This document shows, one piece after another, positions 33,873-40,637 of a DNA stretch of 64,000 nt. Within the stretch, counting starts at the first letter, position 1. Each line of letters begins with the position of its first letter. The position numbers were made by a program, and so were the translations under genes. Origin of the DNA: Methylacidiphilum infernorum V4 (GTDB lineage: Bacteria > Verrucomicrobiota > Verrucomicrobiia > Methylacidiphilales > Methylacidiphilaceae); NCBI RefSeq assembly GCF_000019665.1, contig NC_010794.1:1550001-1614000 (forward strand), written 5' to 3'. The notes under the pieces are model-generated. The model did no database searches. It was not told the DNA's origin and worked only from the letters and a program-made list of their open reading frames with translations.

Positions 33873-35648
33873 CTATAGCCTTTCCTTTGATTCCATTTCA
33901 GAAATGACCGCAGAAAGGAGCCAATCCTTTTTTTCCAACAAAGCGGTGGCGGTTTTTTCATCCAGACCGTAAAGGGTCATGAGTATACGGAGCGAACGGT
34001 AACGCAGCTTCATGCTCTTCGGTTGAAGGTTAATCATGAGATTGTCTTTGACCTTGCCCGTGCGGATCATCGCTATGGTGCTGAACATGTTTAAAACAAC
34101 CTTGGTGGCCGTTCCCGCCTTAAGCCTGGTCGATCCCGCCACGATTTCCGGTCCCGTGGGAAGATCGATCCCGATGTCGGCGTAAGGACAAGGAGGTCTT
34201 TGGGGATTACAACTTAATAGTATCGTTCGGGCTCCCTTGTGTTTAGCCGCTTCAAGGGCGGCAACCACAAAAGGAGTTCGCCCACTGGCCGTGATTCCAC
34301 ACACGATATCCTTTTCGGTTACTCCCCTACTTGAAATGCTTTTGTAACCTTCCCCGCTATCGTCTTCAATCCCTTCCATGCTTCGCAAGACCGCTTCTGC
34401 TCCCCCGGCCATGATTGCCTGGACAACCTCCGGGGAAACGTTAAAAGTAGGGGGCATTTCACTGGCATCGAGCACACCCAGCCTCCCGCTAGTCCCCGCT
34501 CCCACATAAAAGAGCCTCCCTCCCTTGGCCAACGTATCGCTGACGGCCAAGGCTGCCGATTCGATTTCTTTCTTGCATTTTTCCAAGGCGGACTGGACGT
34601 AGGATTCTTCGGAGATAAACAAATCCACCAGTTCGGCCACCGTTTTCTTTTCAAGGGAGCAACTGCGGGGATTCCTTTCCTCGGTCAGGGCCCTATCAAG
34701 TACCTTTCTTTGCTCCTCGGTAGGGAGCCCGTTTTCCTTCTTCAACAATGAGGGACTATAAGAAGTTCTAAGCAGGCGCAAAGCCCCCAAAGGGCCTGGA
34801 GTCCTGCACACAAAGTACTCGGAAAAGGGCAGAAGCCTTTTTAATTCCTTTCCAAAAAGCTGGGTATAAAAGGGGGAGTTTTCAAAGAGCCCGCCTACCA
34901 AGGCTACCCGGGGATGGGTCAATCCCAACCTTTCAGCCACGATCTGGACGCGCAAGGCCAACGCCGAAGCCTCCTTTTTTACGATTTCAAGGGAACTTGC
35001 ATCTCCCTTTTCAGCCATTTCCAAAACGAGGGGAGCAAAAGAGGCGACAAAATCCTTCCTTCCAAACTGCGCAAGAACGTAGCCCAACAACTCGGCCAGG
35101 TTATTGACACAGCAGTGACGAAGAAAAGCCAAGCCAAGGGCTGAATTCTTTTTGGTAAGATCCCAGTCCAAGTAGATCCTTTCCAACCCCTCCCTGCCTA
35201 TCCTATAACCGCTGCCGGGATCACCGAGTTGGCCCCACCCCCCCGCTTTTTCCCACACCCCTCCCTTATAGCCGATCACGTTGGATCCCGTGCCCCCTAT
35301 AACCAATAGGCCTTCTTGGCCTGGATCAAAGGCCCCTGCATAAGCCGACCGGCTGTCTTCGGCCACCACGATTCTTTTGGCCCCGGGCCAAATTTCCCGG
35401 ATCAGGGTTTCAAGCACCTCTTTTTCTTTTTCCGTTTGGCATCCCGCAAACCCAACGCCTATTTCTGCGATGTCTTCCCCGGCTCTTTCCCGGATGGACC
35501 TAAAAAGGGAAAACAGTTCGTCCCGGGATAAAAGATGAAAATTGCCCGCTCCTTCTTTTCCTTCAGAGAGAACCTTGCCGTCCCTTTCCTCGACGACCAT
35601 CCAGCGGGTATGGGTCGCCCCGCCTTCTATGCCTAGTAATTTGCCCAT
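33873..35648 (-). CDS. murQ: Fused amino-sugar kinase (BadF/NAGK type) + N-acetylmuramic acid 6-phosphate etherase MurQ
   Basis: One frame of 591 residues. Residues 1 to about 300 form an ASKHA kinase of the BadF/BcrA/NAGK group: GIEGGATHT (phosphate 1), VIGGTGSNVIGY (phosphate 2), GGWGQLGDPGSGYRIGREGL and VALVGGLFEN. Residues about 312-591 are a MurQ SIS domain: ALTEERNPRS, FYVGAGTSGRLGVLDASEMPPTF and MINLQPKSMKLRYRS. In clostridia, the related stand-alone kinase MurK phosphorylates MurNAc and GlcNAc. MurQ removes the lactyl ether from MurNAc-6-phosphate, giving GlcNAc-6-phosphate. A single protein could therefore turn MurNAc into GlcNAc-6-phosphate, for cell-wall recycling. Substrate of the kinase half is inferred. 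Confidence 0.93.
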   Translation of the reverse strand: MGKLLGIEGGATHTRWMVVEERDGKVLSEGKEGAGNFHLLSRDELFSLFRSIRERAGEDIAEIGVGFAGCQTEKEKEVLETLIREIWPGAKRIVVAEDSRSAYAGAFDPGQEGLLVIGGTGSNVIGYKGGVWEKAGGWGQLGDPGSGYRIGREGLERIYLDWDLTKKNSALGLAFLRHCCVNNLAELLGYVLAQFGRKDFVASFAPLVLEMAEKGDASSLEIVKKEASALALRVQIVAERLGLTHPRVALVGGLFENSPFYTQLFGKELKRLLPFSEYFVCRTPGPLGALRLLRTSYSPSLLKKENGLPTEEQRKVLDRALTEERNPRSCSLEKKTVAELVDLFISEESYVQSALEKCKKEIESAALAVSDTLAKGGRLFYVGAGTSGRLGVLDASEMPPTFNVSPEVVQAIMAGGAEAVLRSMEGIEDDSGEGYKSISSRGVTEKDIVCGITASGRTPFVVAALEAAKHKGARTILLSCNPQRPPCPYADIGIDLPTGPEIVAGSTRLKAGTATKVVLNMFSTIAMIRTGKVKDNLMINLQPKSMKLRYRSLRILMTLYGLDEKTATALLEKKDWLLSAVISEMESKERL

Positions 35649-36227: not shown

Positions 36228-37043
36228 TTATTGTCCTTTCCCTACCACGGTTTCAAGTGCTTTAAGCCAATGTTTCGCATCGGCATTCCCCTGCTCAGCC
36301 GCTTTCCGCCACCAATACTCTGCCTGCACGTAGTCCTGCGGCACTCCTTGGCCATGCCAGTAGGCACCGCCCAGACCGGATTGTGCTGGGGCAAATCCCT
36401 GCTCAGCTGCTTTCCTATACCAATACACCGCCTGTGCGTAGTCCTGCGGCACTCCTTGGCCATGCCAGTAGGCATAGCCCAGAGACCATTGTGCTGGGGC
36501 ATTCCCCTGTTCAGCCGCTTTCCGCCACCAATACACCGCCTGTGAGTAGTCCTGCGGCACTCCTTGGCCATCCCTGTAGGCATCGCCCAGAGACCATTGC
36601 GCTAGGTCATACCCCTGCTCAGCCGCTTTCCGCCACCAATACACCGCCTGCACGTAGTCCTGCGGCACTCCTTGGCCATCCCTGTAGGCATCGCCCAGAG
36701 ACCATTGCGCTGCATCATACCCCTGCTCAGCCGCTTTCCGCCACCAATACACCGCCTGCATGTAGTCCTGCGACACTCCTTGGCCATCCCTGTATGCATT
36801 GCCCAGAGACCATTGCGCTAGGTCATCCCCCTGTTCAGCCGCTTTCCGCCACCAATACACCCCCTGCGTGTAGTCCTGCGGCACTCCCTTGCCATACCAG
36901 TAGGCAATGCCCAGACCGCATTGTGCCTGGACATCTCCTTTCTCGGCCAGTTTTTTCAATTGAGCTATGCTAATGGAATCAGCCCGAACGATGACGATCG
37001 CTAGAATCAAGTAAGTAAGGGCAAGAAAATAGTATTTTCTCAC
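36228..37043 (-). CDS. Secreted Sel1-repeat protein
   Basis: 271 residues. Signal peptide (1-21, cleavage after VRA) then six full 36-residue Sel1-like repeats and a short partial repeat (GNADAKHWLKAL). Repeat sequences are almost identical, with a constant YWWRKAAEQG and GQGVPQDY, unlike the diverged copy at the left end of the window. The start is a GTG behind AGGAGG; an inverted repeat (AACCTC CTAA GAGGTT) covers that ribosome site and may hide it. Paralogous to the protein at 1-810. Probably exported helical repeat scaffold, partner unknown. Confidence 0.85.
   Translation of the reverse strand: MRKYYFLALTYLILAIVIVRADSISIAQLKKLAEKGDVQAQCGLGIAYWYGKGVPQDYTQGVYWWRKAAEQGDDLAQWSLGNAYRDGQGVSQDYMQAVYWWRKAAEQGYDAAQWSLGDAYRDGQGVPQDYVQAVYWWRKAAEQGYDLAQWSLGDAYRDGQGVPQDYSQAVYWWRKAAEQGNAPAQWSLGYAYWHGQGVPQDYAQAVYWYRKAAEQGFAPAQSGLGGAYWHGQGVPQDYVQAEYWWRKAAEQGNADAKHWLKALETVVGKGQ
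36291..36938 (-). repeat. Six tandem 108-bp repeats encoding Sel1 units
   Basis: Six head-to-tail copies of 108 bp with very high DNA identity, as seen from recurring stretches such as GTAGTCCTGCGGCACTCC and CCGCTTTCCGCCACC on the plus strand. The near identity of codons, not just amino acids, indicates recent duplication or homogenisation, so copy number may vary between strains. Confidence 0.8.

Positions 37044-40637
<3,594 letters not shown>

Follow-up and report, generated by a model that had tools for sequence, protein, structure and literature searches.

Can a single polypeptide carry MurNAc through two consecutive steps of peptidoglycan sugar recycling? This question is raised by a gene of Methylacidiphilum infernorum V4, a methane-eating hot-spring bacterium whose genome is a single contig of 2,287,145 bases. 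In the window, by which we mean the whole stretch of 64,000 nucleotides that was analysed, the gene lies on the minus strand at 33873..35648 and runs from ATG to stop without interruption (591 codons plus the stop), and the plus strand has many stops and no open frame in the same frame over these positions. The encoded protein begins with a BadF/NAGK-type kinase domain (residues 1-293, 34770..35648, minus strand), as indicated by Pfam, by PDB matches and by the fold matches of an AlphaFold model, and it continues through an interdomain linker (residues 294-317, 34698..34769, minus strand) into a C-terminal MurNAc-6-phosphate etherase (MurQ) domain (residues 318-579, 33912..34697, minus strand), recognized by NCBIfam PRK05441 and by the PDB structures 4s12, 4lzj and 1nri. 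An earlier note on this DNA had described one 591-residue protein with a kinase half and a full MurQ half, and the single protein with both halves stands, but the MurQ half is not quite full, as it reaches only position 265 of a model with 300 positions and is missing the last C-terminal helical repeat.

The fusion is not an assembly accident, as it is read through in four further genomes of the same genus, three of them single-contig, and is found in most of the order; a sequencing or frameshift artefact is thus excluded by the identical fusion in independent complete genomes. Among 60 genomes of the Methylacidiphilum order, about 36 have both halves in one frame (33 at full length and three cut by contig ends, counted by hand from the table), and three (G014, G022 and G027, of family f3) have separate, adjacent kinase and MurQ genes. 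The fusion is therefore the rule in the order, contrary to the outcome that the earlier note had named as speaking against its reading, namely separate halves in all close relatives. With 30 fused homologues as input, AlphaFold modelled the protein with a mean pLDDT of 89.8 and a pTM of 0.59, and since the one value is high and the other is not, each domain is confidently modelled and the predicted placement of one domain relative to the other is not. The sole break in the model is the disordered linker, with pLDDT below 50 at residues 297-306, and the linker also varies in length among the fused proteins. In Foldseek searches, MurQ structures matched one half and MurK, NAGK and hexokinase structures the other (kinase fold matches 8zo3, 2e2n, 2ch5 and 8ow9), and none of the PDB entries among the matches listed spanned both halves.

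The assignment of the C-terminal half is straightforward. NCBIfam MurQ PRK05441 matches residues 318-579 with 338.6 bits (cut-off 168, E 3e-101), and TIGR00274 reaches 298.0 bits, slightly below its cut-off of 302. As a MurQ of Clostridia that is not part of a fusion (in L019) is comparably short, the half looks like a normal short variant. Both catalytic glutamates are present, namely Glu397 (34458..34460, minus strand) in the motif DASE-x-PPT and Glu428 (34365..34367, minus strand) in the motif E-x-x-ED, which we take to be the equivalents of Glu83 and Glu114 of E. coli MurQ. The half also matches the SIS domains and the structures of GKRP, and by this parallel of a kinase and its regulator its main role could be to sense sugar phosphates and thereby regulate the kinase half. 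We regard such a role as very improbable, because the full MurQ subfamily score, the invariance of both glutamates and their surrounding motifs in all 30 fused proteins, and the better conservation of the MurQ half relative to the kinase half in 29 of 29 comparisons argue for a catalytic etherase.

The kinase half combines an ASKHA sugar-kinase fold with a match to the Pfam profile BcrAD_BadFG (residues 5-264, E 8e-26), and the protein has no match to PF03702, PF00480 or glucokinase, so that the half is neither an AnmK, nor a ROK sugar kinase, nor a glucokinase. In a profile search against the PDB, the best match was C. acetobutylicum MurK (CaMurK, 8zo3; E 4e-59), followed by a Sulfolobus hexokinase (3e-51), human NAGK (5e-31) and T. 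forsythia MurK (TfMurK; about 3e-11), and the best solved match is thus the clostridial MurK that the earlier note had named. CaMurK acts on both MurNAc and GlcNAc (PMC5790795). In TfMurK, the residues G67, D95, N119 and D141 contact functional groups of MurNAc, and a small loop, in the place of a bulky Glu or His that blocks the lactyl group in glucokinases, is held responsible for the specificity (PMC10465942). Mapped by motif and not by structural superposition, these four residues correspond to G69, D98, N123 and D143, of which three do not vary among the 30 fused proteins and the remaining one, N123, is retained by most members of the order; mapped in the same way, a GGW loop at residues 136-138, small as in CaMurK, takes the position of the glucokinase Glu/His, which would leave room for the lactyl group. 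These features permit MurNAc as a substrate and do not prove its use, since human NAGK has a small loop as well, and as the pocket features that allow MurNAc are common to CaMurK and human NAGK, the residues do not separate a preference for MurNAc from one for GlcNAc.

The catalytic Asp98 (35355..35357, minus strand), the equivalent of TfMurK D95, does not vary among the 30 fused proteins or the separate kinases, and the phosphate-binding GTGS motif (G119-S122) is conserved. Two positions are peculiar: Glu97, which adjoins the catalytic aspartate, differs from the Asn of NAGK and the Thr of TfMurK, and residue 8 (35625-35627) is Glu in nearly all fused proteins of the clade described below as clade A and in their split derivatives, not the Asp of the DxGxT phosphate motif that most of the other bacterial BadF kinases in the comparison keep. 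The second-best solved relative, the hexokinase of Sulfolobus tokodaii, is of broad specificity, and this could point to an unrelated hexose, for example glucose or glucosamine, as the substrate of the kinase half. We consider this highly improbable, as a separate, dedicated glucokinase (PF02685) is encoded in the genome, so that the kinase half is not needed for glucose, and as the physical linkage to MurQ is steady, with two fusions and widespread neighbouring genes.

The genome content also bears on the substrate, and the survey of AnmK, MurP and NagA that the earlier note had proposed came out in line with its reading. In searches that each included positive controls, AnmK (PF03702) was absent from all 60 genomes of the order, a PTS EIIC of the MurP type from the M. 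infernorum V4 genome, and AmpG (TIGR00901), a candidate importer of MurNAc, from 20 genomes. A NagA homologue is present (L097 3946-5166; TIGR00221 177 bits, under the cut-off of 226), as is a NagZ homologue that shows no obvious signal peptide (L095 3896-5014; 188 bits, under the cut-off of 207), and NagB as defined by TIGR00502, a type distinct from the SIS-type NagB-II, was absent throughout family f1. As there is no other MurNAc-6P source among those searched in the genome, the MurQ half would be left without a substrate unless the kinase half supplied it.

The same data can also be read to mean that the kinase half functions essentially as a NagK, phosphorylating GlcNAc, with MurNAc-6P coming from elsewhere and the two halves sharing only their product GlcNAc-6P. 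Such a kinase would be needed after NagZ, since ROK kinases (PF00480), and with them a ROK-type NagK, are absent from the genome; among the NCBIfam amino-sugar kinases, the kinase half matches only NagK_SO3507, with a score well short of the cut-off; and in one genome of the order (G016, 96% complete) only the kinase half is found (L053 2760-3707), beside ligA and with no MurQ anywhere in the genome. The MurQ half has apparently been lost there, and the survival of the kinase shows that it has a use of its own in this organism. A pure GlcNAc kinase nevertheless seems unlikely to us, as neither AnmK nor a PTS EIIC is there to supply MurNAc-6P, the pocket has room for the lactyl group, and the closest solved relative phosphorylates both sugars.

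Taken together, the protein is very likely a bifunctional MurNAc (and probably also GlcNAc) 6-kinase and MurNAc-6P etherase of peptidoglycan sugar recycling, and the earlier reading as a two-step MurNAc recycling fusion is supported, with the MurNAc activity deduced from the CaMurK match, from conservation and from the genome content. Dual use of GlcNAc and MurNAc is at least as likely as use of MurNAc alone. The kinase half would transfer phosphate from ATP to the C6 hydroxyl of MurNAc and, like CaMurK, probably also to that of GlcNAc, and the MurQ half would cleave the lactyl ether of MurNAc-6P to GlcNAc-6P and D-lactate. MurNAc and the GlcNAc released by NagZ would in this way converge on GlcNAc-6P, which NagA would deacetylate to GlcN-6P, and as no NagB was found, the product would most likely enter UDP-GlcNAc rather than glycolysis. 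We infer the substrates and the direction of flux from an observed basis that consists of the fusion, its conservation, the intact catalytic residues and the lack of an alternative MurNAc-6P source among those searched.

How did the two halves come together? Trees calculated for each half, as had been suggested in the earlier note, agree with each other. Clade A comprises the Methylacidiphilum fusion, fusions from other families of the class and of the phylum, and the split genes of family f3, and a separate fusion with a longer linker forms clade B in another lineage of the Verrucomicrobiota (L016 5944-7959, L038 and L045). AU tests rejected a single origin of all fusions, with p 1e-7 in the MurQ tree and p 2e-7 in the kinase tree; these p-values are indicative because the groups were picked partly after the trees had been seen. 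As the one-clade constraint was rejected for both halves, the sequences indicate that kinase and MurQ were apparently joined at least twice. A survey of 289 Verrucomicrobiota genomes yielded 18 fusions of the clade that holds the Methylacidiphilum fusion and three more (G097, G105 and G217) of another.

The split genes of family f3 are most simply read as the product of a fission of the fused gene. In all three genomes, a GTGA at the site of the former linker holds both the stop of the kinase gene and, overlapping it, the likely start of the MurQ gene (L050 3503-3599, L051 3519-3525, L052 3505-3568). Forcing the kinases of f3, G016 and G030 outside clade A was rejected (p 0.018), and forcing f3 outside for MurQ was not (p 0.20), values to be taken as equally indicative. 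An ancestral split state is thus contradicted by the kinase test and not by the MurQ test, and the shared locus, the placement in the same order and the fused families outside the order also speak for fission. The locus is marked by ligA, a divergent neighbour that is not part of the enzyme (38568..40637, plus strand) and that is separated from the fusion gene in the window by a gene for a Sel1-repeat protein with near-identical tandem repeats (36228-37043, minus strand). Across the order, ligA adjoins the fused, split or kinase-only gene (L002, L050-L054, L057, L059-L062 and L067), and outside the order it lies divergently beside the gene in G071.

Linkage without fusion is widespread. Other Verrucomicrobiota have neighbouring kinase and MurQ genes as well, and the two genes are adjacent in about 15 of 299 Bacillota genomes (counted by hand), some of them sharing a frame that is interrupted by stops, and in no case is there a clean fusion. 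A run of kinase, nanE-like and murQ genes in Clostridia (L019 5650-8103; the nanE-like gene was named by eye from its sequence) seems, judging from the sequence, to combine the MurNAc and ManNAc routes to GlcNAc-6P. In Bradyrhizobium, a run of kinase, murQ and SIS genes has nagA alongside, and on Rhizobium and Allorhizobium plasmids the kinase and MurQ genes are neighbours; the single alignments across both halves that suggested plasmid fusions turned out to reflect adjacent separate genes. A long open frame in L017 proved to lack a kinase domain. Two further arrangements were observed: in G062, MurQ and a BadF kinase are adjacent in reversed order with MurQ first (L064 3051-5113), and G030 has a standalone kinase paralogue in addition to its fusion (L082 1092-2054).

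Could the fusion be a coupled machine, in which MurNAc-6P is passed from the kinase to MurQ within the assembly, or in which the MurQ/SIS half senses sugar phosphate and gates the kinase in the manner of GKRP? We hold this to be a rather doubtful proposition. If true, it would account for two separate selections of the joining and for the GTGA overlap of the split genes, which may remain translationally coupled. As MurQ is a dimer, the fusion would be expected to carry two kinases on each MurQ dimer. Two independent fusions and one fission in place offer a natural experiment on whether the joining of consecutive recycling enzymes matters. Wall recycling has received little experimental attention in this phylum, and the proposed route gives it a concrete, testable path for MurNAc: a single protein would do the work of a MurNAc kinase, a GlcNAc kinase and MurQ, and neither AnmK, MurP nor the AnmK/AmgK/MurU path of Pseudomonas would be used.

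In the open literature searched, we found no description of a MurQ-kinase fusion, of its two origins or of its fission, and the known systems each share a part of it. Of the solved structures, CaMurK (8zo3), which belongs to the same BadF/NAGK family and has the same open GGWG loop, comes closest to the kinase half, but it is a single-domain protein with Asn before the catalytic Asp (here Glu97), Asp after the AGA loop (here Gln71) and the phosphate-motif Asp (here Glu8). The MurQ structures 4s12, 4lzj and 1nri share the fold, the motifs, both catalytic glutamates and about 40-45% identity with the C-terminal half, which differs in being part of a larger protein and in ending before the last helical repeat. 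GKRP and glucokinase likewise associate MurQ-related SIS domains with a sugar kinase; GKRP is, however, a non-catalytic inhibitor on a chain separate from glucokinase, whereas the catalytic residues are kept in the MurQ half of the fusion. The characterised case of linked MurK and MurQ genes is the murTKQ operon of T. forsythia, in which a MurNAc 6-kinase is genetically linked to MurQ (PMC10465942, PMC5790795), but there the genes are separate and the kinase is far more distant in sequence (even a profile search gives E about 3e-11). The MurB/MurC fusion of Verrucomicrobium spinosum also joins consecutive cell-wall enzymes within the Verrucomicrobiota, in biosynthesis instead of recycling and with unrelated domains (PMC4803751). 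In conclusion, the chemistry and the pathway are already known, and what is new is the fused form of a two-step pathway rather than a new kind of system.
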